Shown here piece after piece: positions 47,615 through 56,969 of a DNA stretch of 64,000 nucleotides. The notes beneath the pieces were generated by a model, which saw only the letters and a list, made by a program, of their open reading frames with translations, did not search any database and was not told the origin of the DNA. Within the stretch, counting starts at the first letter, position 1, and the number at the start of each line of letters is the position of its first letter. The position numbers and the translations under genes are program-made. The stretch comes from Martelella limonii (GTDB lineage: Bacteria; Pseudomonadota; Alphaproteobacteria; Rhizobiales; Rhizobiaceae), in assembly GCF_013344475.1 (NCBI RefSeq), contig NZ_JABUOU010000001.1, positions 124,001-188,000 of the forward strand, written 5' to 3'.

Positions 47615-47846
47615 TCTGTTTTCTCCACTGCTATGCGATCGGCGCTCAGAATTGCTGTTTCCTGACGCCTTGCAAGGCCGGTTTACCGGCAAAAAGGCCA
47701 CTAAATCATAAAAAGCGCCGGTGTTTCGGCTGCTATTGTTGCATTGGACGGGGCTCCGATTATATACCGGCGACACATCCGCGGGGGCAGTCCCCGTCAC
47801 GGCGCGGGGCGCGGCCCCGGTTCTGGTTTGAGGAGTTTTGAGCGAC

Positions 47847-48197
47847 ATGTTTAGCACGGCTTACGCCCAGGCAGCGGGCGCAGCAGGTCCGATGGGATCC
47901 GGTATGGAAATGATCTTCCTGTTCGTTCCCCTGATGGCAATCTGGTATTTCCTGCTGATCAGGCCGCAGCGCCGTCAGGCCAAGAAGCGCCAGGAAACGC
48001 TCTCCGCAATTCGCCGCGGCGATCAGGTCGTCACCGGCGGCGGCATTGTTGGCAAGGTCGTCAAGGTCATTGACGACACCGAACTCGAAGTCGAGATCGC
48101 CGACGGCGTTCGTATCCGGATCATGCGCTCCTACGTCTCGGAAGTCCGGGTCAAGGGCGAGCCGGTGAAGACCGAAGAGGCCAAGACCAAGGCCTGA
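47847..48197 (+). CDS. yajC: preprotein translocase subunit YajC
   Basis: 116-aa YajC: one transmembrane segment (IFLFVPLMAIWYFLLIRPQRRQ, overlapping) followed by the RPQ..R.K. motif and GDQVVTGGGIVGKVV, IADGVRIRIMRSYVSEV. It associates with SecDF and the SecYEG translocon. ATG 47847 (MFSTAYAQ) has AGGAG 11 nt upstream; a TTG at 47838 is only 2 nt from that site. secDF follows. Confidence 0.93.
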   Translation: MFSTAYAQAAGAAGPMGSGMEMIFLFVPLMAIWYFLLIRPQRRQAKKRQETLSAIRRGDQVVTGGGIVGKVVKVIDDTELEVEIADGVRIRIMRSYVSEVRVKGEPVKTEEAKTKA

Positions 48198-48331: not shown

Positions 48332-50890
48332 ATGCTGTATTTTTCCCGTTGGAAGACCTTCTTCATCTGGCTAGCCGTTGTGGTGGGCATCGCCATCGCC
48401 CTGCCAAACCTCTTCAGCAACCAGCAACTTGCGAAGCTTCCCGGCTGGCTGCCCGACAGCAAGATCAATCTCGGTCTCGACCTTCAGGGCGGCTCCTACA
48501 TCATGCTGCAGGTCGATCGGAACGATATCGTCACCGACCGGCTGAATACGCTGGTGGATGATGTGCGCTCCGACCTGCGCGAGGCGCAGGTGCGCTATAC
48601 CGGCCTTTCAGGTTCTGGCGACAGCGCGCAGGTGCGCATCTCCGATCCCGCGCAATATGCGGCGGCGGAAGAAGCGCTGGCGCCGCTTGCGGAATATATC
48701 AATGCCGGCACGATGAATGGCGGCACCTTCCAGGAAGTGACGATGGATGATGATGGCAACGGCCTCATCCGCCTGTCGCTGACCGAACAGGGCATCAATT
48801 ACCGCATGCGCTCGGCCGTCGAGCAGTCGATCGAGGTGATCCGTCGCCGCGTCGACGAACTTGGCACCACCGAGCCGCTGATCCAGCGTCAGGGCGATGA
48901 TCGCGTCATCGTTCAGGTGCCGGGTCTTGACGATCCGCAGCGCCTGAAATCGCTTCTCAACAAGACCGCCAAGCTCACCTTCCACATGGTCGATACCACG
49001 GTATCGGCGCAGGATGCGATCGAGGGCCGCCCGCCGGCAGGCGACGAAGTCGTCTATTCGATGGATGATCCGCCGGTGCCCTATGTGATCGAGAAGCGCG
49101 CCCTGATCTCGGGCGAGGATCTCGTCGACGCCAAGGCCTCTTTCGACCAGCGCACCAACGAGCCGGTCGTCAGTTTCCGCTTCGATTCGCGCGGCGCCCA
49201 GCGCTTTGCGCAGGCGACCCAGCAGAATGTCGGTCGTCCCTTTGCCATCGTGCTTGACGACCAGGTCGTATCCGCTCCGGTCATCAACGAGCCGATCCTC
49301 GGCGGCTCCGGCCAGATTTCCGGCAATTTCACGGTCGAGGGCGCCAACGACCTTGCCGTGCTGCTGCGCGCCGGCGCGCTGCCGGCAACGCTGACCGTTG
49401 TGGAAGAACGCACCGTCGGCCCGAGCCTTGGGGCCGATTCGATCCGCGCCGGTGTCATGGCGTCGATCATCGGCGCGGCACTTGTCGTGCTGTTCATGAT
49501 CGTTTTCTACGGCATGTTCGGTCTGGTCGCCAATATCGCGCTGTTCTTCAACATCGTCATGCTGCTTGCGCTTCTGAGCCTGATCGGCGCGACGCTGACG
49601 CTGCCGGGCATTGCCGGTATCGTGCTGACCATCGGCATGGCGGTCGACTCCAACGTGCTGATTTATGAGCGTATCCGCGAAGAGCGCCGCAATGGCCGCA
49701 GCGTTGTTCAAGCCGTCGATGCCGGCTTCGCGCGCGCCTTCGGCACCATCATCGATGCCAACCTGACGACGCTGATCGCGGCCGTCATCCTGTTCTTCCT
49801 CGGCTCCGGTCCGGTTCGCGGTTTTGCCGTGACGCTGGCAATCGGCATTCTCACCACGATCTTCAGTGCTTTCTATCTGACGCGCTGGATGATTGCCGAG
49901 TGGGTCCGCCGCCGTCGCCCGAAGGAACTGCCGAACGGCATCCGCACCGGCATGTTCGACGGCATCAACTTCTCGTTCATGAACTTCCGCCGCGTCACCT
50001 TCATCGTCTCGGTCATCCTGGTCATCGCCTCGGTCGTCGGTTTCGGCACCAAGGGCATGAACCTAGGCATCGATTTCACCGGCGGCTCGGTGATCCAGGT
50101 CGAGGCGAAGTCCGGTACCGCCGATCTCTCCGAGATCCGTACCCGCCTCAACGAGCTCAACATCGGGGCGGTTCAGGCGCAGGGCTTCGGTTCCGAAAAG
50201 GATGTGCTGATCCGGCTCCAGGCGCAGGAAGGCGGCGCGAATGCGGAGCAGAGCGCGCTCACAAAGGTGCGCGCTGCGCTGCAGGACGACTACACCTTCT
50301 CGCGCGTCGAGGTAGTCGGACCGGTGGTCTCGGGTGAACTCAGCCGCACGGCCGCCATCGGCGTGCTTGCGTCGCTGATCGCGATCCTGATCTATATCTG
50401 GTTCCGGTTCGAGTGGCAGTTCGCCGTCGGCGCCATCATCGCGACCGCGCACGACGTGGTCCTGACCATCGGAATCTTCGTGCTCACGGGGGTCGAGTTC
50501 AACCTCACCAGTATCGCGGCGGTGCTGACCATTGTCGGTTACTCGCTCAACGATACCGTGGTGGTCTATGACCGCGTTCGTGAAAACCTGAGGCGCTATC
50601 AGAAGATGCCGCTGCCGGAGTTGATCGATATCTCGATCAACCACACCCTGTCGCGTACCATCCTGACGGCTGTGACGACGATGCTGGCGCTGGCTGCGCT
50701 CTACATCTTCGGCGGCGAGGTGATCCGCTCCTTCACCTTCGCGATGCTGTTCGGCGTGGCCGTCGGCACCTTCTCCTCGATCTATATCGCGGCTCCGGTG
50801 CTGATCGCCTTCAAGCTGCGTCCCGACACCTTCGACAGGAAGAAGGATGACGGCGCTCCCGAAGAGCAGGGCAGTGTGGAGACGATCTGA
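48332..50890 (+). CDS. secDF: protein translocase subunit SecDF (fused)
   Basis: 852-aa fusion of SecD and SecF, the proton-driven membrane subunits that pull proteins out of the Sec translocon. SecD half: N-terminal helix, NLGLDLQGGSYIMLQVD, VRRRVDELGTTEPLIQRQG (IRRRVDELG), large periplasmic P1 region, GMAVDSNVLIYERIREE. SecF half (from about 545): FMNFRRVTFIVSVIL, GMNLGIDFTGGSVIQVE, GYSLNDTVVVYDRVRENLRR. Fusion is common in Rhizobiales. A Mth938-domain gene follows after 3 nt, implying one transcript. Confidence 0.95.
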   Translation: MLYFSRWKTFFIWLAVVVGIAIALPNLFSNQQLAKLPGWLPDSKINLGLDLQGGSYIMLQVDRNDIVTDRLNTLVDDVRSDLREAQVRYTGLSGSGDSAQVRISDPAQYAAAEEALAPLAEYINAGTMNGGTFQEVTMDDDGNGLIRLSLTEQGINYRMRSAVEQSIEVIRRRVDELGTTEPLIQRQGDDRVIVQVPGLDDPQRLKSLLNKTAKLTFHMVDTTVSAQDAIEGRPPAGDEVVYSMDDPPVPYVIEKRALISGEDLVDAKASFDQRTNEPVVSFRFDSRGAQRFAQATQQNVGRPFAIVLDDQVVSAPVINEPILGGSGQISGNFTVEGANDLAVLLRAGALPATLTVVEERTVGPSLGADSIRAGVMASIIGAALVVLFMIVFYGMFGLVANIALFFNIVMLLALLSLIGATLTLPGIAGIVLTIGMAVDSNVLIYERIREERRNGRSVVQAVDAGFARAFGTIIDANLTTLIAAVILFFLGSGPVRGFAVTLAIGILTTIFSAFYLTRWMIAEWVRRRRPKELPNGIRTGMFDGINFSFMNFRRVTFIVSVILVIASVVGFGTKGMNLGIDFTGGSVIQVEAKSGTADLSEIRTRLNELNIGAVQAQGFGSEKDVLIRLQAQEGGANAEQSALTKVRAALQDDYTFSRVEVVGPVVSGELSRTAAIGVLASLIAILIYIWFRFEWQFAVGAIIATAHDVVLTIGIFVLTGVEFNLTSIAAVLTIVGYSLNDTVVVYDRVRENLRRYQKMPLPELIDISINHTLSRTILTAVTTMLALAALYIFGGEVIRSFTFAMLFGVAVGTFSSIYIAAPVLIAFKLRPDTFDRKKDDGAPEEQGSVETI

Positions 50891-50893
50891 CCG

Positions 50894-51280
50894 ATGGCGC
50901 GCGGCATAGAAATACGCGAGGCGCACTTTCCGGGTCGCGCGCCGATCGACACCTACGGCAATGGCGGTTTCCGCTTTGCCGACATGTCGCACCGCGGCTC
51001 GCTGCTCTGCCTTCCTTCCGGCATTCACGGATGGGATGTGGCGGCCCCGCAGGATATGTCGATCGAAAGCTTCGAGCGTATCCTGTCGGAAGCCGGCGAG
51101 ATCGAGGTATTGCTGGTGGGCACTGGCACGGAGCTGGCGCTTCTGCCGCGCCCGCTTCGCGACGCCTTGAAGGAACGTGGCATCGTCGCCGACCCGATGA
51201 ATACCGGGGCGGCGGTCAGGACCTACAATATCCTGCTGGAAGAATCCCGTGCGGTTGCGGCGGCTCTGATCGCGATCTAG
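50894..51280 (+). CDS. Mth938-domain protein (NDUFAF3 homologue)
   Basis: 128-aa soluble protein of the Mth938/DUF498 family: IDTYGNGGFRFADMSHRGSLLCLPSGIHGWD, then IEVLLVGTGTELALLPRPLRDALKERGIVADPMNTGAAVRTYNILLEESRAVAAALI, quoted in short segments. The family includes mitochondrial NDUFAF3, needed to assemble the membrane arm of respiratory complex I. ATG 50894 is 3 nt after the secDF stop. It is followed by a degenerate phytoene-synthase-like gene; the pairing is discussed under findings. Confidence 0.9.
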   Translation: MARGIEIREAHFPGRAPIDTYGNGGFRFADMSHRGSLLCLPSGIHGWDVAAPQDMSIESFERILSEAGEIEVLLVGTGTELALLPRPLRDALKERGIVADPMNTGAAVRTYNILLEESRAVAAALIAI

Positions 51281-51313
51281 CTTCGCTTCCGCAGAAGGGC
51301 ATTGGAGAGACCA

Positions 51314-52165
51314 TTGGCTGAAGCCCCCGAAAGCCAGGACCTGCTGCTTGCCGAACTGCGCGCGGCCGACCGCGACCGCTATCTTGCCGTTCTGCTTTCA
51401 CCTGCCCAACATCGCCCGTCACTTACCGCGCTTTACCTCTTCAATGCCGAGCTTGCCCGGGTGCGCGAGCGCGTCAGCGAACCGCTTCCCGGAGAAGTGC
51501 GGCTGCAATACTGGCGTGACCTTCTGGAGGGCGCCGGGCACGGCGAAAGCGAACGGAATCCGCTTGCGGCGCGGCTGCTGGAGGCTGTCGCCGAGCACCG
51601 GTTGCCCATCGCGCCTCTTGTAGGCATGACCGAAGCGCGCATCTTCGACCTTTATGACGATCCGATGGGCGGGCTATCGGATTTCGAAGGCTATGCAGGC
51701 GAGACCGCCTCGGCGGTGATCCAGCTTGCCAGCCTCATTCTTTCGCCCGAGAGCGCTGCCTGGTCGGCAACGGCTGCGGGCCATGCCGGTGTCGCCCAGG
51801 CGGTTGCCGGATCGCTTCTGCTGATCGGCCGCCACCGTGCCAATGGACAGGTCTTCATTCCAACGGAAATCCTGTCGGCAACCGGGCTTGACCGCGAATC
51901 ATTCCTGATCGGCAGCGATCGGGAAAGGGTCGGCCATGCCATACGCGCCTTTGCCGGTTTCGGCCGGTCGCACCTCGAGAAATTCCGTGCCGAGCCCCGG
52001 ATTGCAAGGGAAATCGCGCCCGCCTATCTCCCGGTTTCATTGACCAAGAACATTCTTGTAAAGGCCGAGGCTTTGGGGGAAAATATATTAGACACTTCAA
52101 TCCAGCCGCCACAGTGGAAGAGACAGCTGATCATGATGCGCTCTTTGCTCTTTGGTAAGTTTTGA
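51314..52165 (+). CDS. phytoene/squalene-synthase-like protein lacking catalytic Asp motifs (NDUFAF6-like)
   Basis: 283-aa protein of the squalene/phytoene synthase fold: LTALYLFNAELARVRERVSEPLPGEVRLQYWRDLLEG and GYAGETASAVIQLASLIL, seen in short segments. The two Asp-rich prenyl-diphosphate motifs are absent. Where active enzymes have a D-x-x-x-D in the first block, this has FNAELARV. The second block reads GRHRANGQVFIPTEIL rather than an NILRD. It therefore resembles NDUFAF6, the non-enzymatic complex I assembly factor, more than carotenoid enzymes. No carotenoid genes are near. TTG at 51314 with GGAGAG (51304-51309) is the likely start; TTG 51302 is an alternative. Confidence 0.82.
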   Translation: MAEAPESQDLLLAELRAADRDRYLAVLLSPAQHRPSLTALYLFNAELARVRERVSEPLPGEVRLQYWRDLLEGAGHGESERNPLAARLLEAVAEHRLPIAPLVGMTEARIFDLYDDPMGGLSDFEGYAGETASAVIQLASLILSPESAAWSATAAGHAGVAQAVAGSLLLIGRHRANGQVFIPTEILSATGLDRESFLIGSDRERVGHAIRAFAGFGRSHLEKFRAEPRIAREIAPAYLPVSLTKNILVKAEALGENILDTSIQPPQWKRQLIMMRSLLFGKF

Positions 52166-52278: not shown

Positions 52279-52701
52279 ATGGATATTCGCTACTGGATCG
52301 TCATTGCGGCCATCGTCGCCGTTGCCGCCTATTATTTCCTGTTCCGCCCCAAGGCCGATGCCGCCGGCCATGAAGGCTCTGTCAGCGAGGCCTATACATG
52401 GGCACGCGGCGAGTTCCGCCGCAACTTTCCTGATGAAAACGTGACCGGGGTGATCGGCGACAAGGAGATGGAGACATTTTTCCTGCGCCTCTCCGATGGG
52501 CGGGTCGGCATCTACCGCTCGCGTCGCGGCAAGGGGCAGGCGATCATCGTGGTTCAGGGCGACTATCGCCTAAGGGCGCTGCCTGAAGCGAACGGCTTGC
52601 AGGTCGATTATCCGGAAGTGGATTTCTTCAGCGGCAATTACCTGTTCCGCACCGAACAGGATGCCGCTGACGTATCGACCTGGATGCTCAACGCCCGCTG
52701 A
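52279..52701 (+). CDS. membrane-anchored hypothetical protein (140 aa)
   Basis: One N-terminal transmembrane segment (about 5-23, YWIVIAAIVAVAAYYFLF), then a soluble beta-rich domain: GHEGSVSEAYTWARGEFRRNFPDENVTGVIGDKEMETFFLRLSDGRVGIYRSRRGKG seen as overlapping blocks. I recognise no named family. It lies 113 nt after the phytoene-synthase-like gene on the same strand. Its function is unknown; its context beside SecDF and the assembly-factor-like pair may be meaningful. Confidence 0.8.
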   Translation: MDIRYWIVIAAIVAVAAYYFLFRPKADAAGHEGSVSEAYTWARGEFRRNFPDENVTGVIGDKEMETFFLRLSDGRVGIYRSRRGKGQAIIVVQGDYRLRALPEANGLQVDYPEVDFFSGNYLFRTEQDAADVSTWMLNAR

Positions 52702-52771: not shown

Positions 52772-54172
52772 TCAGGCGGCAAGCCAGGCCTTGCAGGCAT
52801 CAAGCGCGCGCCTTGCCATCACCTGCTTCTTCACGATCGACTTTGCCTTTCCGCGCGGCTTCTTGCCGGTTTCAGGGTCAATGAGCGAACCGGCCTCCAG
52901 TTCCGGGAACAGGCCGAAATTGACATTCATCGGCTGGAACGAGCGCTTGCCGCCTTCTTCCTCATGGGCAAGATGGCCGCCGGTGACGTGGCCGAGAAGC
53001 GCGCCGAGCGCGGTTTCCGCAGGCGGAACGATCGGGGTGTTGCCGAGCCGTTCCGCTGCTGCAAAACGTCCGGCGAGAAGGCCGATGCTGGCGCTTTCCA
53101 CATAGCCTTCGCAGCCCGTGATCTGCCCCGCAAACCGCAGGCCCGGCCGGCCTTTCAGCGTCAGCGTGTGGTCGAGCAGCACCGGCGAGTTCAGATAGGT
53201 GTTGCGATGCAGTCCCCCAAGCCGTGCGAATTCGGCTTCGCCGAGGCCTGGAATCATCTGCAGGATGTGCTTCTGCGCGCCGTAACGCAGCTTGGTCTGG
53301 AAGCCGACGATATTGTAGAGCGTGCCCAACGCATTGTCCTGGCGAAGCTGGACGACGGCATAGGGTTTCACCTCGGGGTTATGAGCATTGGTAAGCCCCA
53401 TCGGCTTCATCGGGCCGTGGCGCAGCGTTTCGCGGCCGCGCTCGGCCATGACTTCGATCGGCAGGCAGCCGTCGAAATAGGGCGTGCCTTCCCATTCGTG
53501 GAAATCGGTCTTGTCGCCGGCGATCATGGCATCGATGAAGGCGTTGTACTCTGCCTCGTTCATCGGGCAGTTGATGTAATCCTTGCCCGTGCCGCCGGGA
53601 CCGACCTTGTCGTAGCGCGACTGGAACCAGCAGATGTCCATGTCAATGGTGTCGCGGTAGACGATGGGCGCGATCGCATCGAAGAAGGCAAGCGCCTCGC
53701 GACCGGTCTTTTCCTGGATCGCCTCGGCAAGGGCGGGGGCGGTGAGGGGGCCGGTGGCGATGATCGCCTGGTCCCAGTCTTCCGGGGGGAGCGTTGCCAC
53801 TTCCTCGCGCACGATCGTGACCAGCGGATGGTCTGCGAGCTTTGCCGTTACTGCGTCGGAAAAACCGTCACGGTCCACCGCAAGCGCGCCGCCCGCCGGC
53901 ACCTGATGGGCATCGGCGCAGGCCATGATCAGCGAATTGGCAAGCCGCATCTCGGCATGGATCACGCCGACCGCGTTGCTGGTCGCGTCATCCGAGCGGA
54001 AGGAGTTGGAGCAGACGAGCTCGGCAAGGCCATCGGTCTTGTGCGCCGCCGTTTCCCTGACGCCGCGCATTTCATGCAGGATCACCGGGATGCCGGCATT
54101 GGCGATCTGCCAGGAGGCTTCCGAGCCTGCAAGGCCGCCGCCGATGACGTGAATGGGTTTATGCTCGGACAT
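52772..54172 (-). CDS. trmFO: methylenetetrahydrofolate--tRNA-(uracil-5-)-methyltransferase TrmFO
   Basis: 466-aa FAD enzyme that methylates U54 of tRNA to ribothymidine with methylenetetrahydrofolate. The FAD motif [17 protein letters not shown] is followed by [31 protein letters not shown] in overlapping pieces. Later come [29 protein letters not shown] and [19 protein letters not shown]. Normal length. ATG 54172 ([13 protein letters not shown]). It is divergent from xfp; the 397-bp gap between them holds only the regulatory sites described separately. Confidence 0.95.
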
Positions 54173-54569: not shown

Positions 54570-56969
54570 ATGGAAAAGATCACGCCTGACGCGACCCGCA
54601 ACATTCTTGCGCGCGATGAACTCGATCTGATGAACAGATACTGGCAGGCGGCCAACTACCTGTCGGTCGGCCAGATCTATCTGATGGATAATCCGCTTCT
54701 CAAAGCGCCGCTTGAAGCCGAGCACGTCAAGCCGCGCCTGCTCGGCCACTGGGGCACGACGCCGGGGCTCAATTTCATCTATGTCCACCTCAACCGCATC
54801 ATCAAGGCGCATGATGCGGACATGATCTATATCTGCGGTCCCGGACACGGCGGGCCGGGCCTCGTCGCCAACGCCTATCTCGATGGCACCTATACCGAAA
54901 TCTATCCCGAGATCACCGAGGACGAGGCGGGGATGCAGAAGCTGTTCAAGCAGTTCTCCTTCCCCGGCGGCATACCGAGCCATGTGGCTCCGGAAACGCC
55001 CGGCTCGATCCATGAGGGCGGCGAGCTCGGCTATGCGCTGGTTCACGCTTTCGGGGCCGCGTTCGACAATCCGGAGCTGGTTGTTGCCTGCGTCGTGGGC
55101 GATGGTGAGGCCGAAACCGGACCGCTGGCCGCCTCGTGGCATTCGAACAAGTTCCTGAACCCGATCGTCGACGGGGCGGTGCTGCCGATCCTGCATCTCA
55201 ACGGCTACAAGATCGCCAATCCGACCGTGCTTGCGCGCATGAAGAAGTCGGATCTCACCGATCTCTTCACCGGCTACGGTTACGAGCCCTTCTATGTCGA
55301 AGGCGATGACCCGGAATACATGCACCAGCGCATGGCCGAGGTGATGGACGAATGCTACGCCCGCATTCGCGAGATCCAGGAAACCGCCCGCGCCGATGGC
55401 ACGGTTTACGAAATGCCGCGCTGGCCGATGATCATCTTGCGCAGTCCCAAGGGTTGGACCGGACCGAAATTCGTCGACAACAAGAAGGTCGAGGATTTCT
55501 GGCGCGCCCATCAGGTGCCGATCGCCGAGGCGCGCAAGAATGGCGAGCACCGGGCCGAACTGGAAGAATGGATGCGCAGCTACGCGCCGGAAAACCTGTT
55601 CGACGAAAACGGCCGGCTTGTGGAAGAGCTGAAGGCGCTGACGCCGGAAGGCAAAAGGCGCATGAGCGCCAATCCGCATACCAATGGCGGGCTGCTGCGC
55701 AAGGAACTGAAGATGCCGGACTTCAGGGCGCTCGCCGTCGACGTGAAGCAGCCAGGCGAGGTCATGGCTTCTGCGACCAAGCATCTCGGCATGCTGCTTG
55801 CGGAAGTGATGAAGCTCAATGAAAGCGAGCGCAATTTCCGCCTGATGGGGCCCGACGAGACCGCATCGAACCGGCTGCAGGACGTGTTCACGACCACCGA
55901 CCGGGTCTGGATGGCGGACATTCTCGAATATGACGAGGGCATTGCCCGGGACGGCCGGGTGATGGAAGTGCTCAGTGAGCATCTGTGCCAGGGCTGGCTC
56001 GAGGGCTACCTGCTGACCGGTCGCCACGGTTTGTTCTCGTGCTACGAGGCCTTCATCCACATCGTCGACTCGATGTTCAACCAGCACGCAAAGTGGCTCA
56101 AGACCACGCGGACGATGGAGTGGCGCAAGCCGATCTCGTCGCTCAACTACCTGCTGACATCGCATGTCTGGCGTCAGGACCATAACGGCTTCAGCCATCA
56201 GGATCCGGGCTTCGTTGATCACGTCATCAACAAGAAGGCCGACGTTGTGCGCACTTATTTCCCGCCGGATGCCAATACGTTGCTGTGGGTTGGCGACCAT
56301 ATCCTGCAGACCTATAACCGCGTCAACGTGGTGGTTGCCGGCAAGCAGCCTTCGCCGCAATGGCTCTCGATCGATGAAGCGATCGTGCATTGCGAGGCGG
56401 GTCTTGGCGAATGGAAATGGGCAAGCAACGTGCCGGAAGGCGAGACGCCCGATGTGGTGATGGCCGCAGCCGGCGATGTGCCGACGCTTGAAATGATGGC
56501 AGCCGTCGATCTTCTGCGCCAGAAGGTGCCGGAGATGAAGGTCAAGGTCGTCAACGTCGTCGACCTGATGACGCTGCAGCCCAAGGAAGAGCATCCGCAT
56601 GGTCTGCGCGATGCCGATTTCGACGCGGTCTTCACGACGGACAAGCCGGTGATCTTTGCCTATCACGGCTATCCCTGGCTGATCCATCGTCTCGCCTATC
56701 GCCGCCACAACCACAACAACATCCATGTGCGCGGCTATGTCGAGGAGGGAACAACGACCACGCCGTTCGACATGGTTGTCCTCAACCGCCTCGACCGCTA
56801 CCATCTGGCCATCGACGCCATCGAACGGGCAGGCGGATTCGGCGAGCGGGGTGCTGCAGCAATCAACTTTCTGAAGGACATGCGCATGAAGCACCATGCC
56901 TATGTTCGCGAGCATGGCGAAGACATGCCCGATATCGCAAACTGGAAGTGGCCCTATCCGAAGGGCTGA
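54570..56969 (+). CDS. xfp: phosphoketolase
   Basis: 799-aa thiamine-diphosphate enzyme cleaving xylulose 5-phosphate (and often fructose 6-phosphate) with phosphate to acetyl phosphate and glyceraldehyde 3-phosphate (or erythrose 4-phosphate). The N-terminal [56 protein letters not shown] (ThDP motif) and later HYPRxxx-type RAYEG..NP segments are conserved. AckA, encoded 94 nt downstream, converts the acetyl phosphate to acetate and ATP. Length is standard. ATG 54570. Confidence 0.95.

Follow-up and report, generated by a model that had tools for sequence, protein, structure and literature searches.

The two genes downstream of secDF in Martelella limonii probably code for proteins that are conserved in Alphaproteobacteria and assist in the biogenesis of complex I (NADH:quinone oxidoreductase), as counterparts of the mitochondrial factors NDUFAF3 and NDUFAF6, and the second protein is predicted to be catalytically dead. 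We put the probability of this reading at about 0.6. It is built on the families of both proteins, the fold and the lost motifs of the second, the linkage of the genes, and the way in which they co-occur, both mutually and with complex I. The window, i.e. the whole stretch of 64,000 nucleotides that was analysed, contains the following features around the pair:

47838..48197, + strand: yajC (PF02699, 93.8 bits)
48332..50890, + strand: secDF, a single fused gene (PF02355, PF22599, PF21760, PF07549)
50894..51280, + strand: Mth938/PF04430 (DUF498) protein of 128 aa, NDUFAF3 family (PF04430, 107 bits; PDB 2fi9 and 2fvt)
51314..52165, + strand: AF6-like protein, squalene/phytoene-synthase fold lacking both Asp motifs (PF00494, 157 bits; structure model, fold search, motif counts)
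52279..52701, + strand: 140-aa ORF, N-terminal helix and compact beta domain (relatives in named loci; predicted model)
52772-54172, - strand: trmFO (named by eye)
54570-56969: phosphoketolase (named by eye)

The Mth938 gene is separated from secDF by 3 nt, and the AF6-like gene follows after 33 nt if it starts at TTG 51314, or after 21 nt if it starts at TTG 51302; GGAGAG is located just 5' of 51314. The gaps of 3 and 33 nt given in the preliminary description were found again, the latter for the start at 51314. A further 113 nt lie between the AF6-like gene and the 140-aa ORF. The earlier remark that no carotenoid genes are nearby refers to the ORF list of approximately 44.6-57 kb, which was looked over by eye.

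The first protein of the pair matches PF04430 with 107.4 bits (cut-off 33, E 4.8e-31) over model positions 1-109 of 109. This full-length domain above the curated cut-off places it in the Mth938 family, which contains NDUFAF3, as had been proposed from the sequence. It is the only PF04430 match in the Martelella genome. Two solved alphaproteobacterial PF04430 proteins are close sequence matches: PDB 2fi9 from end to end (E 6e-48) and 2fvt over residues 10-128 (E 2e-36). The names of these entries point to no established function. A human relative, AAMDC (2ab1), matched the Mth938 profile weakly (E 3e-6), and there was no NDUFAF3 chain among the PDB matches of this protein.

The second protein aligns with nearly the full length of SQS_PSY (PF00494; 157 bits, E 9.7e-46). 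Its AlphaFold2 model, derived with 36 relatives, is of high quality (pLDDT 91.5, pTM 0.88), and Foldseek returned the CrtM-like structure 8is6 as best hit (TM 0.82) and HpnC 4hd1 as the fourth. AF6-like thus has a fold in common with the prenyl synthases HpnC, HpnD and CrtM (TM 0.69-0.82), but differs from these in the missing catalytic Asp motifs and in scores far below the NCBIfam equivalog cut-offs: 65.8 against 278.6 for HpnD, 26.5 against 250.45 for HpnC, and about 20 against 500-550 for CrtB. In an alignment of 69 AF6-like and 36 Hpn-type rows, Asp occupies the three sites of motif 1 in 34, 34 and 36 and the two sites of motif 2 in 34 and 35 of the 36 Hpn-type rows, versus 0, 0 and 7 (motif 1) and 0 and 3 (motif 2) of the 69 AF6-like rows. 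The protein of the window carries A52, R53 and E56 at motif 1 as well as L174 and H178 at motif 2. The replacements in motif 1 are themselves conserved (A in 62, R or K in 66, and E in 52 of 69 rows), R67 and W71 are invariant, and L68 and Q69 nearly so, which implies that the protein has kept a function. Hence, AF6-like appears to be a squalene-synthase fold without catalytic activity, judged by its residues. The description of a synthase-fold protein devoid of the Asp motifs holds for all aligned homologues, and the motif loss argues against an intact prenyl-transferase, the finding that had been named as speaking against a role in assembly. We reject a carotenoid or hopanoid enzyme on the motif loss together with the scores below the cut-offs.

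The putative equation of AF6-like with NDUFAF6 draws on what Lemire (2017) reportedly set out on NDUFAF6 evolution and on one published account of NDU1. The Leigh-syndrome change Q99R of human NDUFAF6 may fall in the conserved R67-W71 motif of AF6-like. Q99R is listed in the cited part of PMC4992684. The account of NDU1, as far as the cited section goes, states that NDUFAF6 and its Candida counterpart NDU1 have the squalene/phytoene-synthase fold with the DxxxD motifs lost, the same as in AF6-like, and that four bacterial orthologues served as outgroup (PMC8007014). AF6-like differs from both in being bacterial and in having no mitochondrial presequence.

To what extent the pair stays together was examined in 60 loci fetched around a PF04430 match, mostly one per family, from 60 of the 164 PF04430-positive genomes. 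In this set, which was picked for the presence of PF04430, the Mth938 gene is located beside yajC in all 60 loci, and SecDF was found in 59 (none in L047). An AF6-like gene lies 3' of the Mth938 gene on the same strand in 48 of the 60, a count made with a profile that contained many of the rows tested and including two loci with weak scores (L075 and L090, 42 and 47 bits). The pair is adjacent in 6 of these 48 loci (domain gap 48-79 nt) and more than 800 nt apart in the other 42; in 37, an opposite-strand gene that recurs across loci separates the two. These intervening genes encode superoxide dismutase, a Urate_ox_N-like protein, or an amine oxidase. The Urate_ox_N-like gene was seen between Mth938 and AF6-like in L033 (7638-8285) and 28 more loci (cluster c1), mostly on the opposite strand.

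A different picture emerged from the named genomes, where the AF6-like profile detected at least 584 relatives. The best 80 were kept, and by title their loci belong nearly all to the Hyphomicrobiales, with one MAG titled Xylophilus. Among these best 80 loci, the two genes are same-strand neighbours in every case (domain gap 8-311 nt), accompanied by yajC in 77 and by secDF in 68. Since adjacency is the rule in these mostly Hyphomicrobiales loci and separation the rule in most others, close packing of the pair is a trait of the lineage, superimposed on an older gene order. Co-transcription with secDF, which had been considered likely, therefore stands as an arrangement in the Hyphomicrobiales and some other lineages, and falls elsewhere, where 42 of 48 pairs are more than 800 nt apart. 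Ancestral co-transcription of the pair with secDF was rejected in view of the opposite-strand gene in 37 of 48 loci.

The nearness to yajC-secDF may reflect inherited gene order without any tie to Sec, and for the Sec part we lean slightly towards this explanation. It is compatible with the pair being complex I factors; the two readings do not exclude each other. Unrelated genes are kept in the same block, namely those for an M23 peptidase (37), surE (29), pcm (28), a uvrA-type protein (22) and serS (20), counted over 61 loci including the window, and the superoxide dismutase gene is conserved in this wider block as well. As these genes share the order, the arrangement speaks only faintly for a Sec role of the pair. 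The opposite-strand gene that splits the pair points in the same direction, and so do the 12 of 60 loci with no AF6-like gene in the stretch: 9 of those genomes carry one elsewhere (G018, G035, G053, G065, G078, G080, G085, G089 and G196). On the other hand, the Mth938 gene and secDF are immediate neighbours in almost every fetched locus, and only 3 nt apart in the window. The conserved linkage expected in relatives was thus recovered for Mth938 and secDF, and is incomplete for AF6-like.

Co-occurrence with complex I was followed in 289 genomes of the class, with AF6-like profile A1 applied at E<=1e-15 throughout. Hpn proteins match this profile down to approximately E 3e-27, so that fetched hits were scored with both the AF6 and the Hpn profile. 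This two-profile check was done for the 49 class-draw hits weaker than E 1e-36 (28, plus G021, then 21), leaving out second, partial AF6-like hits in G125, G276 and G282. PF04430 was found in 164 and NuoD in 263 of the 289 genomes; AF6-like was present in 152 at E<1e-36 and in a further 27 after the checks. A missed NuoD could not be equated with loss of complex I, because G189, G193, G290, G312, G360 and G412 have NuoL and were reclassed as complex I-positive. Two of these, G189 and G193, were the NuoD-less genomes of the class draw that seemed to carry the genes, and moving them left 24 NuoD-less genomes; the two of these that were searched for NuoL (G037 and G213) gave no match.

Among the 265 complex I genomes, AF6-like was found in 179, a count favoured by the use of a more sensitive profile (A5) solely on NuoD-positive genomes, namely 77 of the 83 in which the first cut had shown neither gene, and Mth938 in 164, against 0 of 24 NuoD-less genomes for each. 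At the even cut of E<1e-36 the contrast for AF6-like is 152 of 265 versus 0 of 24. When only complex I genomes of up to 2.0 Mb are counted it is 17 of 76 for AF6-like (p 0.010) and 13 of 76 for Mth938 (p 0.034) versus 0 of 24, with p-values that ignore phylogeny. The two genes also co-occur strongly with each other: at the even cut, 134 of the 289 genomes have both, 18 AF6-like only, 30 Mth938 only, and 107 neither. Neither gene was found in 69 of the 265 complex I genomes, 54 of which are not larger than 2.0 Mb. These small NuoD-containing genomes may assemble complex I without the two factors or may hold copies that have diverged beyond recognition.

The link to complex I is thus supported by co-occurrence, which is partly confounded by genome reduction and phylogeny. 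It is rather unlikely, in our estimation, that genome reduction and shared ancestry alone produced the association and that the proteins have some other role at the membrane. The 20 of 24 NuoD-less genomes for which sizes were shown (all but G197, G229, G237 and G248) are all <=2.0 Mb and would agree with such a by-product, as would the 54 of 76 small complex I genomes without both genes. Against it stand genomes of other sizes in a single family, considered below. The idea of a complex I assembly module, put forward in the preliminary description, thereby gains from the co-occurrence, confounded as it is, and loses its ancestral co-transcription with secDF.

The family in question is that of G213, from which 150 genomes were drawn. 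It is probably the Acetobacteraceae, because the cited part of PMC10715153 mentions two complex I operon kinds, nuo13 and nuo14, in these bacteria, nuo13 presumably being the kind with fused NuoCD. Two types of NuoD were found in the family: separate NuoC and NuoD, the latter sharing 38-42% identity with E. coli NuoD, or a fused NuoCD with 59-88% identity. The fused protein reaches 88% identity to E. coli in G315 and G387 (family loci L212-L251). AF6-like was detected in 0 of 11 genomes with no NuoD and no NuoL, in 1 of the 13 that showed fused NuoCD only (G309, whose draft assembly has about 150 contigs), in 9 of 9 with both complex I types, and in 112 of the 117 others, the exceptions being G305, G313, G343, G354 and G416. 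This amounts to 121 of 126 genomes counted as having the mitochondrial-type complex I versus 1 of 24 with no complex I or only the E. coli type. The two-profile check covered all 13 fused-only and 6 of the 11 complex I-less genomes, the other 5 resting on E-values at Hpn level; for the 9 genomes with both types and 106 of the others the AF6-like call rests on E<=2e-33, and G282 and G372 were counted on partial, unchecked hits. Among the 117, separate NuoC and NuoD were seen in 9, 4 were assigned on NuoL alone, and the rest on the NuoD score; the complex I call in G303 and G305 is based on NuoD fragments, and G386 may have a fused-type fragment as well.

Within the family, AF6-like was not found in E. 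coli-type-only genomes of 2.9-3.7 Mb (G295, G308, G311, G322, G331 and G356) and is present in mitochondrial-type genomes of 2.0-2.5 Mb (G021, G132 and G432), which argues against a mere by-product of genome reduction. The family tree, on the other hand, agrees with an effect of shared ancestry. In an rpoB tree of 30 chosen out of the 150 genomes, calculated by a quick method with midpoint rooting, loss of the separate type requires 2 changes (a clade of 15, and G309) and loss of AF6-like 4 (the same clade of 15, and G343, G354 and G416). The last three lost AF6-like without losing the mitochondrial-type enzyme. Only 2 independent pairs result, without statistical support, and since this is essentially one joint loss the family pattern is suggestive only. 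Sister to the loss clade (SH-aLRT 94) are G325, G341 and G352, which have both types, so the tree fits an order in which the fused type was gained first and the old type and AF6-like were then lost together.

As a tentative extension, which we regard as possible but somewhat less likely than the contrary, AF6-like may be a dedicated biogenesis factor of the mitochondrial-lineage complex I with separate NuoC and NuoD, and of no use to the fused-NuoCD enzyme. Bacteria of the acetic-acid type would have taken up the E. coli-type enzyme and dropped the old one along with AF6-like, whereas those with both enzymes would keep the factor. If true, the role of NDUFAF6 would be tied to some trait of the enzyme lineage from which mitochondrial complex I descends, and not to complex I as a whole. 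G309 speaks against a complex I role, as it has AF6-like and yet only a fused NuoCD was found. The two factors can part, for Mth938 was not found in the four genomes that the class draw contains from this family (G021, G132, G213 and G282), three of which have complex I. In a limited literature search we found no report tying AF6-like to complex I type, and make no claim that this is unpublished.

A continuing role of AF6-like in isoprenoid metabolism (squalene, hopanoids or quinone), for instance as partner or regulator of HpnC/HpnD, is improbable: the fold is that of prenyl synthases and Hpn-type genes, mostly antisense, are located near it in several loci, but these number just 11 of 60, both Asp motifs are gone in the 69 rows, and AF6-like is absent from the checked HpnC/HpnD genomes with no or only E. 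coli-type complex I. HpnC/HpnD-type genes lie antisense beside AF6-like in L044, L048, L053, L055, L070, L083 and L085, and were also found in L076, which has no AF6-like neighbour. Several of the Hpn-type loci also hold an amine-oxidase (HpnE-like) gene. Such loci may mark the site where the dead paralogue arose.

Under the reading that we favour, complex I biogenesis, the binding and assembly steps that we infer for the pair are the following. AF6-like would sit at the membrane and hold a newly inserted membrane subunit, most likely NuoH, the ND1 counterpart, and its old prenyl pocket is perhaps used for a lipid or quinone. Mth938 would hold the quinone-site module (NuoB/C/D/I) until docking. 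Both might be coupled to SecDF-YajC. For the mitochondrial factors, the cited part of PMC10910544 assigns NDUFAF3 to the Q module and NDUFAF6 to the proximal membrane module, and the evolutionary rates of the two correlate, as the cited section of PMC3436739 states; further background is given in the portions cited of PMC7050145 and PMC7827222.

The link of this pair to complex I was reportedly published in 2009 by Saada et al., who are said to have connected NDUFAF3 with the bacterial SecF/SecD/YajC cluster and with C8ORF38 (NDUFAF6): the same two families, their neighbours, and the proposal of complex I assembly along with membrane insertion. Our analysis goes beyond it in the counts over lineages, the separating opposite-strand gene, and the contrast of two complex I types. 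The genome comparisons sharpen the 2009 link to a testable idea, namely that one of the proteins serves only the mitochondrial-type enzyme. Patients with a defective NDUFAF3 or NDUFAF6 suffer from severe complex I disease. Tractable bacteria in which the two genes adjoin provide a direct route to the complex I feature that needs a dead enzyme, and relatives that lack an NDUFAF6-like gene and possess complex I of the E. coli type only provide a contrast for the same question.

The 140-aa protein encoded downstream is a possible extra member of the module, as had been suggested. It gave no Pfam or NCBIfam family above cut-off, and a fold search of the PDB with its model (pLDDT 91.8; one N-terminal helix and a compact beta domain) yielded nothing at E<=0.001, the weak best hits being of EVH1/PH type. 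It is a recurrent neighbour, often found 3' of AF6-like in the Rhizobiaceae and relatives, and nothing else ties it to complex I. Relatives of this membrane-anchored family, which bears no Pfam or NCBIfam name, are encoded in 44 of the best 80 named loci (within L313-L392), in 42 cases directly after AF6-like.
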